From Acidobacteria bacterium 13_1_20CM_3_53_8 (GTDB lineage Bacteria > Acidobacteriota > Blastocatellia > Pyrinomonadales > Pyrinomonadaceae): DNA of 44,463 nucleotides. The position numbers were made by a program, and so were the translations under genes. The notes beneath the pieces were generated by a model, which was given only the letters and a program-made list of their open reading frames with translations, had not been told where the DNA came from and ran no database searches. The stretch covers positions 1-44,463 of the forward strand of contig MNJR01000093.1 of the NCBI GenBank assembly GCA_001920415.1, written 5' to 3'. Shown piece after piece: positions 984 to 36,336 of this stretch. The number at the start of each line of letters is the position of its first letter. Within the stretch, counting starts at the first letter, position 1.

Positions 984-2741
984 ATGTCTACGCTCAAAAA
1001 ACAAACGAAACAGATACGTCAAACGCAAGGGCTTCTGCTAGCCATCGCGATGTTGACAAACCTCTTTGCTGTCACCGCCTATTCCGTGTCACGTTCCCCT
1101 GCGGCGGCGATAACGCGTCATGCCGTTGGCTCTTTCACACGACCGCAGGCCGTAGCGTCGAGGTCCGACAGCAAGATCGCCTTCACAAGCAATCGTGACG
1201 GCTACCCACAGATTTATGTGATGAACTCGGACGGAACTGATCAGATTCGGCTGACTAATAGTCACCCCGCAGACAGCGACCCGGCCTTTTCTCCCGACGG
1301 GACGAAGATCGCATTTCGCAGCCTCCGCGACGGATCAGCCGAGATTTATCTTATGAACTCTGATGGCAGCAATCAGACGAGGCTGACCAACAGTTCTGGA
1401 GGCAATAGCATACGGCCTACGTGGTCGCCCGACGGAAGAAAGATTGCATTCGTTCGTAATGCTACGGCACTCTACATAATGAATGTGGACGGCAGCGGAC
1501 TGGCGAATATCTTCTCCAGCGCAGTGACGGGGAACTTCATTACAAATACCTTCATTAGGGATCCAGCCTGGTCGCCCGACGGCTCAAGGATCGCTTTTGA
1601 ACTAAGTGATTTTCTAAGCGGAGAGATCAATGTAGTGAATACCGACGGCACTGGCCTTGCTACTCTACAGCGAGCGGGGGAAATCCTTGATTTCAACTTC
1701 ACGCCTTCTTGGTCGCCCGATGGAGGAAACATAGCATTTGCTTACAAGAATGATCTTTACCAGTTTAATCAACTCAACTTGATGGGTGCTGACGGAAAGA
1801 ACCAGCGTAGGCTTGTGAACGTCGCGGTTATCGAAAAAGTGTCATGGTCTCCTGATGGAGCAAAGATCGCTTTCGATGACTTCAACGACGGAGAGATATA
1901 TACAATTAACAGTAATGGGTCAGGCCGAGTGAATTTGACTAACAATCCGGCGCTAGATTATCAGCCGTCGTGGGGAACTGTGCCGTCAGCTTCTCCGACT
2001 TGCCCTAATCCGATTGACTGCGCGGAGTCGTTTATACGCCAGCAGTATCTTGACTTCCTCAATCGCGAGCCTGATACGGGGGGATTGGATTACTGGACAA
2101 CGCAGATTACGCAGTGCGGCGCGGACGCAGCCTGTATACATCGCCAGCGCGTAGGCGTCTCTGCGGCCTTCTTCATTGAGCTAGAGTTTCAAGAGACAGG
2201 ATATTTCGTCTATCGCTTCTACAAGGCTTCGTATAGCGTTCGTCCCACCTTCGCCCAGTTCATAACGGATCGCAGCCGCGTCATTGGCGGCTCAAGTCTG
2301 GAAGCTAACAAACAGGCCTTCGCTGATGAGTGGGTTCAGCGTAGCGTCTTTCTAGCAGCTTACCCAAATACTATGAGCAATACGGAGTTCGTCAATAAGC
2401 TCTACGATACAGCAAACTTAAAACCTTACACGACTGAGCGCCAACAGCAGATTGATGCTATGGTTCAAAGCGGAAGGACTCGCGCGCAGGTGGTGCGAGA
2501 GGTCATAGAGATACAAGAGTTCAAACAGCGAGAATACAACCCAGCCTTTGTAGACATGCAGTATTTTGGATATTTAAGGCGTGATGCAGACGCGGGAGGT
2601 TATGATTTCTGGCTGAACGTCCTCGACAACCGCGTTCAGGGCAACTATCGCGCTATGGTCTGCGCCTTCCTGACCTCTACGGAATATCAGTTGCGATTCG
2701 GAACGGTCATTACACGTAGCAATCAAGATTGTACGCCGTAG
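984..2741 (+). CDS. TolB-like beta-propeller (PD40) protein with C-terminal DUF4214 repeats
   Basis: Predicted 585 aa. The start is ATG 984, with AGGAG 8 nt upstream. Residues about 16-34 are a hydrophobic export or anchor segment. Residues about 60-345 contain repeated PD40/WD40-like blades: the motif SPDGxKIAF (PAFSPDGTKIAF, PTWSPDGRKIAF, PAWSPDGSRIAF) alternates with IYxMNSDGS, as in TolB propellers. Residues about 355-580 hold DUF4214-type modules (QQYLDFLNREPDTGGLDYW and FGYLRRDADAGGYDFW), which are associated with secreted or surface proteins. The combination suggests an exported or cell-surface protein whose propeller binds a partner. No catalytic residues are evident. It is directly downstream of, and probably coupled to, the small basic protein gene. 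Confidence 0.85.
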   Translation: MSTLKKQTKQIRQTQGLLLAIAMLTNLFAVTAYSVSRSPAAAITRHAVGSFTRPQAVASRSDSKIAFTSNRDGYPQIYVMNSDGTDQIRLTNSHPADSDPAFSPDGTKIAFRSLRDGSAEIYLMNSDGSNQTRLTNSSGGNSIRPTWSPDGRKIAFVRNATALYIMNVDGSGLANIFSSAVTGNFITNTFIRDPAWSPDGSRIAFELSDFLSGEINVVNTDGTGLATLQRAGEILDFNFTPSWSPDGGNIAFAYKNDLYQFNQLNLMGADGKNQRRLVNVAVIEKVSWSPDGAKIAFDDFNDGEIYTINSNGSGRVNLTNNPALDYQPSWGTVPSASPTCPNPIDCAESFIRQQYLDFLNREPDTGGLDYWTTQITQCGADAACIHRQRVGVSAAFFIELEFQETGYFVYRFYKASYSVRPTFAQFITDRSRVIGGSSLEANKQAFADEWVQRSVFLAAYPNTMSNTEFVNKLYDTANLKPYTTERQQQIDAMVQSGRTRAQVVREVIEIQEFKQREYNPAFVDMQYFGYLRRDADAGGYDFWLNVLDNRVQGNYRAMVCAFLTSTEYQLRFGTVITRSNQDCTP

Positions 2742-2778
2742 ATATCCTGTGATTAAGCTCACCAGATTAAACCTCAAC

Positions 2779-2815
2779 GGGGGCGAACTAATTAGCGTTG
2801 CTGTTCGCTCCCCTT
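2779..2815 (+). terminator. Candidate terminator hairpin after the DUF4214 gene
   Basis: GGGGGCGAAC pairs with GTTCGCTCCCC across a 14-nt loop, with one bulge, 38 bp after the stop at 2741. The following tract is only TTCTACC, so termination without other factors is uncertain. The rest of the gap up to 2985 shows no gene. Confidence 0.45.
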
Positions 2816-2985
2816 CTACCAAACGAGCTACTATGCGAGCCACTTCAAATAAGCGCTAAAAATATCCTTCCAGACTTTACCTAATCTCTTTCCTCTGAAT
2901 GTTGACAATCATCATGGGATGGGAATAAGGTTGCGAGCCAGACTGAATCATTCGTCACAATTGTTTACGAGTAAGGGGCGGAGTT

Positions 2986-3399: not shown

Positions 3400-3539
3400 C
3401 TAGAGCAGTTTGCGAATCAATTTACCCTTGGTTTAGAGGCGTGCATAGCCAGCCGCCACGAATTACATCGCAGATAGAACCGGCGGGCATAGCCCTCCTC
3501 TAAACGTAACGGGGTAAACACAAACGCAAACCGCTCTAG
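3400..3539. repeat. Long imperfect inverted repeat (about 140 bp)
   Basis: The outer arms are CTAGAGCAGTTTGCG on the left and CGCAAACCGCTCTAG on the right. Inner paired blocks include TTTACCC with GGGGTAAA, TTTAGAGG with CCTCTAAAC, and GCATAGCC with GGGCATAGC. The element folds along its whole length. It carries no coding frame and lies between a membrane-protein gene and a tRNA promoter. It is either a foldback element or a transcription barrier; a second copy was not seen in this window. Confidence 0.6.
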
Positions 3540-3626
3540 AACTAATCACAGTGCCATATTAGTGACAGTCTCACGGCTTCAATTTTATTAAGTTCATCTT
3601 TACCAGTTACCTATATGAGTGCTCAA

Positions 3627-3655
3627 TTGCCGATAGCCTCCGGCTTAGTTATAAT
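3627..3655 (+). promoter_or_regulatory. Sigma-70-type promoter of the tRNA gene
   Basis: TTGCCG (3627-3632) and TATAAT (3650-3655) are separated by exactly 17 bp. The predicted transcription start near 3662 is about 5 bp before the mature tRNA 5' end. Confidence 0.7.
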
Positions 3656-3666
3656 TTAACTCCTGT

Positions 3667-3740
3667 GGCGGGGTAGCTCAGCTGGTTAGAGCACGAGATT
3701 CATAACCTCGAGGCCGAGAGTTCGAGTCTCTCCCCCGCTA
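3667..3740 (+). tRNA. tRNA with CAT anticodon (elongator Met, or Ile2 if lysidine-modified)
   Basis: A cloverleaf is visible. The acceptor stem GGCGGGG pairs with CCCCGCT, the D stem is GCTC/GAGC, the anticodon CAT is at 3701-3703, and the T stem is GAGAG/CTCTC with loop TTCGAGT. The discriminator is A at 3740 and CCA is not encoded. The first acceptor pair is G-U rather than the C-A mismatch of initiators, so this is not tRNA-fMet. The anticodon stem has one A-C mismatch next to the loop (3698 with 3706). The 3' half, from the anticodon onwards, is overlapped antisense by the endonuclease gene whose stop codon lies in the anticodon loop. Confidence 0.93.
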
Positions 3741-4164
3741 CTCTCTTCAGTTCTGCGATGTGCCTCTCCCAAGAATAATCTTTCGCCCAACGAATGAATT
3801 TTTCCTGTTTGTTCATCGTCGGCTCGATTCTGAGCGATGCTGATCCTTTCGTAGCCTCAAAAGGCATCCCGTATATCTCATTCAACTGTGGGCAGTAAAT
3901 AGCGAAATAATCCACCTCGCCTTTTTCATACCTCCTCATAGTCCGGTCATAGCTCGCATTTCTTCGCCTAGTCCTACACTGTATGCAACCTTTCCCGAAA
4001 GTGGCGGTCTTGACTTGTATTTTCACAATCCGAGTGCCTGTATCAACGGCCAGATCATAAGGCCCACCTGTTCCGAATGGGATGCAGACCCTAAATCCAG
4101 CTTTGACATAATGGCCTAGCATGATACCTTCCGCCTCGTTCCCAATATCAAATGTGGTTCGCAT
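3700..4164 (-). CDS. PD-(D/E)XK endonuclease of the group I intron-associated (I-Ssp6803I-like, PDDEXK_5) type
   Basis: Predicted 154 aa; ATG 4164 has GGAGG about 9 nt upstream. The core YDLAVDTGTRIVKIQVKT is the PD-(D/E)XK fold signature with Q in place of the usual E. The likely active site is E12, D37, Q50 and K52, which matches the spacing I recall for I-Ssp6803I, the homing endonuclease of the cyanobacterial tRNA-fMet intron. The motif EVDYFAIYCPQLNEIYGMP is also typical of the family. The last 13 residues (VAGERLELSASRL) are encoded by the complement of the tRNA 3' half, and the TGA stop covers the first two anticodon bases and the preceding T. No intron interrupts the tRNA, so this is a free-standing form. 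It could cleave tRNA alleles lacking the insertion (inference). Confidence 0.8.
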   Translation of the reverse strand: MRTTFDIGNEAEGIMLGHYVKAGFRVCIPFGTGGPYDLAVDTGTRIVKIQVKTATFGKGCIQCRTRRRNASYDRTMRRYEKGEVDYFAIYCPQLNEIYGMPFEATKGSASLRIEPTMNKQEKFIRWAKDYSWERHIAELKRVAGERLELSASRL

Positions 4165-4425
4165 TTGCAGTTCCCTCCATTCTTTTATCGGCAGATTCTC
4201 GCTCTTTGATAATCGCTTAGAGGGTTTTGTGTTGAGCGGGTAATATTATACTAAAGGCAGTATATTGGGCGATGATGTTTTTTCATTATGCGTAAAGTCT
4301 GTTCTAGTTCGGATTGAAGCGGATTGCTGTTAGCATGCAGTAAAATGCGCGGCTGTTTGCCTGAGATGTTACGGGGCGCGTATCATGTTACGGTCTGAAA
4401 CGCTTTAGTTAAGGTGTTTGCACCG

Positions 4426-5403
4426 ATGGCTGATCTAATTCACAGGCCGCGACGATTGCGTAGGCGCGAACCGTTGCGTGCGCTGGTGCGCGAGGTGCGG
4501 CTTTCAAGGGAGGACTTTATTCTTCCCTTCTTCGTCTGCACAGGCGAGGGCGTCAGGCGCGAAGTGTCGTCTATGCCCGGAGTCTTTAACCTTTCGGTTG
4601 ACGAGGTTGTGCGCGACGCAACCGAGGCGTATGAGACGGGCGTGCGTGGCGTGATACTTTTCGGGCTGCCTGAGTCTAAAGATGAGACGGCCACGGGCGC
4701 TTATGCCGAAAGCGGGATTGTGCAACAGGCCGTGCGCGCAATCTCTCGCGCCCTGCCCGATCTCATCATCATTACGGACACTTGCCTGTGCGAGTACACG
4801 TCGCACGGGCACTGCGGTGTGATACGCCAGGGCGAGGTCTTAAACGACGAATCGCTTGAGTTGATTGCGCGCACCGCAGTGAGTCAGGCTGAAGCTGGCG
4901 CAGACATAGTAGCGCCGTCGGCAATGATGGATGGACAGGTCGGAGCGATTCGTGAAGCGCTGGACACGAACGGGTTCGAGCACATAGCCATCATGGCTTA
5001 CGCAGTGAAATACGCTTCAGCTTTTTACGGCCCGTTCCGCGATGCTGCCGATAGCGCACCCGCTTTCGGAGACCGACGCGCTTACCAGATGGACTCATCA
5101 AACGCGCGCGAGGCCATGCGCGAGGCAGAGCTTGATTACGCAGAGGGCGCAGATTTTCTGATGGTCAAACCTGCGCTTCCTTATCTTGATATTTTGAAGG
5201 CCGTGCGCGACCGTTTCGACTTGCCGATTGCCGCCTATCACGTTTCCGGCGAGTACGCGATGATAAAGGCTGCGGCGCAGAAAGGCTGGCTGGATGAAGA
5301 GCGCGTCATGCTAGAAACTTTAACGAGCATCAAGCGCGCTGGCGCAGACATCATCATCACTTACTATGCACGCGAAGCGATAAGAGCAGTTTTCAGTTTT
5401 TAG
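4426..5403 (+). CDS. hemB: Delta-aminolevulinic acid dehydratase (porphobilinogen synthase)
   Basis: Condenses two 5-aminolevulinate molecules to porphobilinogen in cytoplasmic tetrapyrrole synthesis. Predicted 325 aa, the usual family length. The zinc cysteines are C120, C122 and C130 ([14 protein letters not shown]). The Schiff-base lysines are K195 ([16 protein letters not shown]) and K248 ([12 protein letters not shown]), essentially the E. coli positions. ATG 4426 was preferred to the in-frame GTG at 4414 because AAGG precedes it by 11 nt and the protein then starts as in homologues. The last four residues (VFSF) and the stop codon are encoded by the left arm of a TTTTCAG-type hairpin repeat, so the repeat has replaced the native 3' end. 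The flanking gap upstream (4165-4425) shows no gene. Confidence 0.96.
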
Positions 5404-36113: not shown

Positions 36114-36336
36114 CTTAGTCCCGTTAGGGACGTTTGATAATAGCCCAGCACTTCAGTGCTGGGTAACATGTGCAAAATAAAATTAGAGTCCCGTAGGGAC
36201 GGCTGAATATTTGAGATTTGAAATTTTAGATTTGAAATATTCAGCCGTCCCTACGGGACTCTGTTACATCCTTTGTGCTTATCCCCAGCACTGAAGTGCT
36301 GGGCTATTATCAATTTGTCCCTACGGGACAACCCTA
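36114..36336. repeat. Nested palindrome cluster with GTCCCTACGGGAC and CCCAGCACTTCAGTGCTGGG modules
   Basis: A 223-bp mirror structure. Its order is GTCCCGTTAGGGAC, GATAATAGCCCAGCACTTCA with GTGCTGGG, then GTCCCGTAGGGACGGCTGAA, a central GATTTGAAATTTTAGATTTG, and the same modules in reverse. Each module is also a small palindrome by itself. It fills the 302-bp gap between pump and outer-membrane factor genes in the same operon; no gene is present there. Confidence 0.8.

Follow-up and report, generated by a model that had tools for sequence, protein, structure and literature searches.

A family of homing endonuclease genes related to I-Ssp6803I appears to break tRNA genes and to bring a whole replacement for each tRNA it breaks. 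For the family at large this seems the most economical account of the sequences compared here, and we consider it the probable one, the window included; by the window we mean the whole stretch of 44,463 nucleotides under analysis. The enzyme would be directed at tRNA genes, with the anticodon arm as the likeliest site, family members would insert into the targeted gene, and a complete, usually divergent copy of the target tRNA would travel beside the endonuclease and take over once the native tRNA is split. Because a spare copy of the tRNA is brought along, the host would survive; the native halves would then decay, and the endonuclease may be lost later, with the replacement tRNA staying in place. 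What the sequences show is the linkage of these genes to tRNA genes, the fold, split tRNAs with whole tRNAs nested inside them in some relatives, and alleles free of the gene. Cleavage and its site, the resistance of the replacement tRNA, the homing transfer and the part of the window itself in the replacement cycle are inferred.

The endonuclease gene of the window is an open reading frame of 154 amino acids with an ATG start codon (3700-4164, minus strand). It converges on an intact tRNA gene with the anticodon CAT (3667-3741, plus strand; 66.7 bits against the Rfam tRNA model), which we read as the putative replacement tRNA. The two genes overlap at 3700-3741, where 42 nucleotides antisense to the 3' part of the tRNA provide the last 13 codons and the TGA of the reading frame. 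The stop codon pairs with 3700-3702, whereas the anticodon occupies 3701-3703, which places the stop inside the anticodon loop; the coordinates thus confirm the sequence-only reading, which had described a gene ending within a tRNA-CAT, with 13 antisense residues and a TGA lying over part of CAT. A presumed promoter region precedes the tRNA (3621-3662, plus strand), and a spacer (4165-4413) separates the start of the endonuclease from a gene on the plus strand (4414-5403) that we take to be hemB-like and that serves as the syntenic anchor for endonuclease-free alleles. No intron is matched in the window at gathering scores and the tRNA is uninterrupted, so the gene does not qualify as intron-encoded. 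No displaced tRNA halves were found at the window, the spacer included, and its place in the replacement cycle is therefore read from its clade and the orientation of its tRNA; the halves may have decayed. The assembly yields 63 tRNA matches, and the tRNA of the window is the single distinct CAT tRNA among the loci fetched for them. No gene for initiator Met or for Ile2(CAT) turned up among these 63 matches, and either a gap in the assembly or intron-interrupted genes would account for this. Elsewhere in the same genome, 16 tRNA matches fall within 1.9 kb (G000:C9:132421-134277), an array of phage-like density.

The encoded protein matches the PF11645 PDDEXK_5 profile with E = 5.1e-28 and 98.2 bits, against a curated cut-off of 26.1, and its best sequence match in the PDB is I-Ssp6803I (2ost, E = 0.001). 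The family core extends over approximately residues 3-132 and is followed by a C-terminal helix and the 13 residues antisense to the tRNA. The structure predicted from 47 aligned family members reaches a mean pLDDT of 91, and its four best PDB fold matches in Foldseek are I-Ssp6803I chains (2ost_A best, E 6.4e-10), in agreement with the PD-(D/E)XK fold that had been expected of a structure prediction. Residues D37, Q50 and K52 show no variation in an alignment of 16 rows; in the 47-row alignment Q50 and K52 are invariant and D37 is kept in at least 90% of rows. E12, which had been proposed alongside them, reaches at least 90% in a 12-row alignment and falls below that level in the 16-row one, composed of the same 12 with intron-like and other members added. 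The initial description of an I-Ssp6803I-like enzyme therefore stands for the fold and for D37, Q50 and K52, and E12 drops out at the 90% level in the 16-row set. On its profile match, its predicted fold and the D..QxK residues, the window gene can be classed as a free-standing PD-(D/E)XK endonuclease of the I-Ssp6803I (PDDEXK_5) type.

Relatives retrieved with a 12-member profile occur in 38 of 162 genomes of the class and in 16 of 301 genomes from the phylum to which an Anaerolineae record belongs, most of the genomes compared being drafts; the window protein alone, used as the query, gives a match in 15 of 40 relatives. The 152 loci searched produced 150 profile hits, from which 37 with a core contained in another were removed, leaving a table of 113 that excludes the hemB loci (L021-L050). 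Of the 41 non-redundant loci with a score of at least 100, 32 lie no more than 150 bp from an intact tRNA, against about 0.8% expected by chance (63 tRNAs in 6.1 Mb), which shows that the linkage is not a chance association. At scores of 60 to 100 an intact tRNA lies within that distance in 2 of 16 loci, 10 of which bear an intron-ORF label in the tree, and below 60 in 10 of 56. The 32 linked loci involve tRNAs for Gly, Arg, Ala, Met, His, Thr and Lys, which precede or follow the gene in both orientations, and in the family table as a whole the isotypes beside relatives are Gly, Arg, Ala, His, Thr, Lys, Pro and Met, together with others. Three of the nine high-scoring loci that have no intact tRNA nearby (L003, L157 and L162) have, within 100 bp, the 3' portion of a tRNA that a group II intron interrupts; the other six show neither an intact nor a visibly split tRNA within 150 bp, one of them (L161) ending at a contig end and another (L156) containing a run of N. 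The notion that the site preference has been kept without an intron holds for the association with tRNA anticodons, and gives way as a preference for one single site, the relatives being spread over many isotypes. A GGG/CCC anticodon stem is typical of initiator tRNAs; the tRNA-CAT of the window does not have it, and its gene is thus not the I-Ssp6803I site itself.

Linkage to tRNA genes is not a general property of such endonucleases, since none of the 29 viral loci found with the alignment of the window clade has a tRNA in the fetched stretch. A search of the whole phylum with PF11645 returned 9 of 396 genomes, two of which (G118 and G289) hold at least 10 paralogs each, and of the 20 loci fetched from these two (within L056-L080), L070 alone has a tRNA in its fetched stretch (Cys, antisense at the 3' end). 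If the space beside tRNA genes simply tolerated insertions, the window gene might be a fossil or passenger, a decaying remnant with no current activity, and the long branch of its protein in the tree (0.88) and the internal stops of some relatives would be in keeping with this. Such a reading nevertheless seems improbable: distant relatives, the viral loci among them, are mostly unlinked, and the window reading frame is intact, keeps D37, Q50 and K52 and has a confidently predicted fold.

Replacement, as opposed to mere proximity, is suggested by loci in which a whole tRNA lies inside a broken one. The members of the tRNA-Gly(CCC) clade have a complete tRNA-Gly after the endonuclease gene, on the same strand. 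At L101, nucleotides 1-29 of a tRNA-Gly precede the gene and nucleotides 35-75 follow the complete, different tRNA-Gly, and the two fragments agree without a difference with the uninterrupted tRNA-Gly of L209, from another genome. L012 retains nucleotides 1-27 (30 with one mismatch) and 41-74 of this same native type, and L020, at tRNA-Ala(CGC), retains nucleotides 1-33, in degenerate form, and 43-73. The nested arrangement is found in these three loci and not at the window; a single fragment is retained in L011, L097, L099, L103 and L105. Fragments scoring at least 15 are present in 8 of 18 same-strand loci, with both fragments in 3, as compared with 4 and 0 of 68 ordinary tRNAs serving as the control, in which other whole tRNAs were masked and the own sequence was left in the library, whereas at the occupied loci the own sequence was removed and other tRNAs were left unmasked; one of the four control matches is a tRNA-Gly relic beside the tRNA-Gly of L209. 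The other 10 of these 18 loci show no fragment, a strong fragment signal is missing from all 19 antisense-3' loci tested (a weak one is present in L158 and L172), and among loci with a tRNA on the 5' side the signal is confined to L002. This locus belongs to the same genome as the window; a complete tRNA-His precedes its gene, and the C-terminus of that gene reads through a tRNA-His-like 3' half.

Where the break can be read (L101, L012, L097 and L105), it falls at nucleotides 27-41, in the anticodon arm; L099 and L103 keep 5' pieces only, ending at nucleotides 16-21, short of the arm. Seven Gly loci retain fragments, and in each of them the complete tRNA is distinct from these fragments, with an ungapped identity of 8/16 to 29/37 that is lowered by offsets in some cases; at L101, for example, a stem CCGGC TTCCCAA GCCGG lies within the native TCA...GCTGA. 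The 3' fragment of L020 is, by eye, near-identical to the 3' end of its complete tRNA, so that divergence of the carried tRNA is not supported there. An insertion that rebuilds one tRNA half, as first proposed, is not what these relatives display; in them the whole tRNA gene appears to have been rebuilt.

Occupied alleles can be set beside empty or emptied ones. At L097 (G489), the tRNA 3' half downstream of the replacement tRNA continues into a flank homologous to that of L211, the uninterrupted tRNA-Gly of G012, a genome of the same genus. The Gly locus of G491 (L206) matches that of G490 (L099) in the flank, the tRNA and the promoter region and is without the 481 bp that hold the endonuclease; its tRNA-Gly is of the replacement type, and the locus looks like a case of endonuclease loss after the tRNA swap. 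Insertion of a tRNA-targeting element by a tyrosine-type integrase, with the 3' part of the gene restored by the element, would likewise combine tRNA targeting with restored tRNA function, as is typical of such elements. We hold it to be hardly credible here, because the extra DNA of the compared Gly loci amounts to about 0.5 kb with the endonuclease and no other gene, hence no integrase, because the breaks in L012, L097, L101 and L105 lie in the anticodon arm, and because the carried tRNA is a full copy.

The tRNA-Arg(CCG) locus of G491 has an endonuclease from the clade of the window protein (support 100/95), and within its flanks the tRNA has the opposite orientation to that in G490 and G010, both of the same genus, and in G001; in the comparison with G010 one flank alone aligns. 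The region upstream of this tRNA resembles the one in G001 (a match equalled by 0 of 300 shuffles) and does not resemble those in G490 (24 of 300) or G010 (125 of 300). A further genome of the genus has an endonuclease-free locus (L200, G492:C50) in which the tRNA-Arg(CCG) is without the last 17 nucleotides of its 3' end, and it is at the site of this truncation that the sister genome G491 carries its endonuclease.

Searches for hemB in relatives gave 51 distinct loci, 16 of which, the window among them, have a tRNA-Met close upstream; the other 35 have no tRNA-Met in the fetched stretch. An endonuclease stands between the tRNA and hemB in the window only, and this patchy presence next to gene-free alleles is as expected of a free-standing homing endonuclease. 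The uninterrupted tRNA alleles without the gene that the sequence-only reading would look for in relatives thus exist, anchored by hemB: 14 have the tRNA-Met on the strand opposite hemB, and one, in G006, has it on the same strand, as does the window. The A31-C39 mismatch at the anticodon (GATTCATAACC), earlier taken to mark the insertion junction, is common to all 16 tRNA-Met genes, 15 of them in loci without the endonuclease, and was ruled out as an insertion scar. The presumed promoter at 3621-3662 matches the upstream region in G006, where the tRNA-Met has the same orientation (score equalled by 0 of 200 shuffles), and the upstream region of the window tRNA finds no match in eight opposite-oriented relatives (p 0.07 to 0.93). 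The differences in orientation and in the upstream region set the tRNA unit of the window apart in type from the unit found in most relatives, and both are shared with G006. Since G006 has the same unit without the gene, the change of orientation may predate the insertion. The endonuclease may have been lost in the lineage of G006 or may have arrived later in that of the window.

Three other candidates were set aside at these loci. Simple inversion of the native tRNA together with its promoter was rejected, as the upstream region of the window is unmatched in the eight natives tested. Retention of the native promoter upstream of the endonuclease, considered for the antisense class, is unsupported at the window, where the region 4165-4330 compared with native tRNA promoters gives p 0.06 to 0.82 in eight comparisons, and at G491, where 230, 225 and 225 of 300 shuffles are as good. 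Loss of the encoded CCA was dropped as a mark because it varies among endonuclease-free alleles.

Intronless homing in the manner of SegB would need neither a split tRNA nor a replacement at the window: the gene would spread by co-conversion with a flanking tRNA, and the inverted tRNA would be older and unrelated. The intact tRNA of the window without relic halves, the same orientation without the gene in G006, the several Chloroflexota-side members that merely abut intact tRNAs and the relatives lying among phage tRNA genes are all consistent with such a history, which we nonetheless judge unlikely, though worth keeping in view, since it leaves unexplained both the complete tRNAs that lie inside broken ones with an identical anticodon and the orientation change at Met as well as at Arg. 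Under the replacement account, the window would represent an endonuclease with a convergent, replacement-type tRNA-Met at a place where the tRNA-Met of relatives runs on the opposite strand.

The overlap of the two genes recurs among relatives, and in different forms. The frame read over the T-loop is 0 in L004, L089, L107, L109 and L179 and 1 in the window, L007 and L163, and five Chloroflexota-side members (L155, L158, L159, L171 and L172) either end short of the tRNA or reach into it by a single base. As the frames differ among antisense relatives, the tail appears to be incidental readthrough, and it is probably explained by the lack of a stop codon ahead of a tightly placed tRNA; at the window, the 13-codon overlap would follow from a tight join. 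A functional overlap, in which the tRNA-derived tail serves the protein or the genes are coupled through their convergent transcription, could appeal to the fact that the overlap is real and is seen again in Arg and Ala antisense members. It is very improbable in view of the two frames and of the five members that do without an overlap of more than one base, and a functional C-terminal tail was rejected for the difference in reading frames.

Relatives inside interrupted tRNAs fall in the same tree as the free-standing members. L003 (1960-2605, minus strand) has a tRNA with a CAT anticodon interrupted by a group II intron (RF00029, 64.5 bits), with both halves seen, and in L157, L162 and L182 the intron scores 56.6 to 66.2 bits and the tRNA 3' half is seen; in all four the endonuclease gene is convergent on the tRNA 3' end. 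Bacterial tRNA genes are not known to contain group II introns. The contig of L003 may be a contaminant, as its protein nests among Chloroflexota-side members on a branch of 0.025. PDDEXK_5 reading frames are also found in intron-like inserts that split tRNA-Lys(CTT) (L119, L123 and L126) or Arg-like tRNAs (L013-L016, L114-L116, L118, L120 and L122). None of these matches an Rfam group I intron at the gathering score, the best reaching 23.4 bits (L123) against a cut-off of 50; judged by the split exons and known motifs, the inserts are probably group I introns.

Seven viral loci were found with the alignment of the Gly clade, all amid clusters of tRNA genes, and L315 to L317 share the same gene, which leaves five distinct loci. 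In Escherichia phage 241, Vibrio phage AG74 and Synechococcus phage Sf-FR1 the relative lies among annotated tRNA genes, overlapping a tRNA-Val in Sf-FR1; Enterococcus phage EFP01 has no annotated tRNA nearby, and ARAGORN places a tRNA-Arg less than 200 bp downstream. Rfam detects no tRNA halves beside the endonucleases of L313 and L314, and halves seen there by eye were left out of the counts. The position of these relatives within phage tRNA clusters makes phage tRNA arrays a possible source and vehicle of the cassettes.

Homing endonucleases spare their hosts through introns, inteins or sites between genes. If the account given here is true, whole replacement of the broken gene is another such solution, and it would explain why single tRNA genes are found to be foreign, inverted or flanked by tRNA fragments. 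Some mitochondrial endonuclease genes duplicate the 3' end of the host gene, and synthetic home-and-rescue or cleave-and-rescue drives exist. With these the present family would share the pairing of a nuclease with a copy that rescues the essential target, and from them it would differ in being natural and bacterial and in having a whole RNA gene as the rescue. A stronger form of the account would see in it a natural counterpart of engineered rescue drives, a home-and-rescue drive of bacteria and phages that cuts the anticodon arm and moves as a cassette of the endonuclease with an uncleavable tRNA of the same anticodon and a different stem. The host would become dependent on the parasite's tRNA as the native one decays, and repeated cycles would swap bacterial tRNA genes for foreign ones, with phage arrays as a possible reservoir or vehicle. 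We regard the chances for and against this stronger form as evenly balanced.

I-Ssp6803I is the group I intron endonuclease of a cyanobacterial tRNA-fMet, and the title of Bonocora and Shub 2001, as cited in PMC3984707, names the anticodon region for it. The family shares its fold and motif and, as predicted here, the anticodon region of tRNAs as the target. The window differs in having no intron and a tRNA that, by the usual hallmarks, is not an initiator, and the family differs in occurring at many isotypes, with some free-standing members bringing a complete second tRNA rather than a self-splicing intron. SegB of phage T4 is, in the excerpts of PMC2988022 and PMC6409571, a free-standing homing endonuclease that lies between tRNA genes and spreads those around it, and PMC2988022 gives its target as a tRNA intergenic region. 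It resembles the window gene as a free-standing endonuclease gene lying at tRNA genes; SegB is of the GIY-YIG family, and those excerpts describe no split native tRNA with a nested replacement for it. HNH endonucleases of mycobacterial and mycobacteriophage tRNA arrays, suspected of diversifying tRNA repertoires (PMC5966550), are likewise endonuclease genes in tRNA arrays and belong to another nuclease family, and the excerpt of that paper reports no insertion of a replacement tRNA. In the open full-text literature, an endonuclease with a replacement tRNA is undescribed in the titles and abstract openings of the matches listed.

Other genes and repeats were noted near such tRNA ends. At L023 (G012), a broken HNH-like coding piece, recognized by eye, runs up to the 3' terminus of the hemB-linked tRNA-Met and is convergent with it (approximately 2680-2960, minus strand), and in L170 an HNH-like reading frame, also identified by eye, lies downstream of the endonuclease, between it and a tRNA-Thr; the niche at tRNA ends may thus be used by other nuclease families too. 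Upstream of the window tRNA, an imperfect inverted repeat at 3400-3539 has arms of 28 nucleotides, 79% complementary and 84 nucleotides apart, with a second inverted repeat nested inside it, and resembles a small mobile element. The window also contains two Acido-Lenti-1 RNAs on opposite strands, approximately 120 bp apart (36117-36163, minus strand, and 36284-36330, plus strand).
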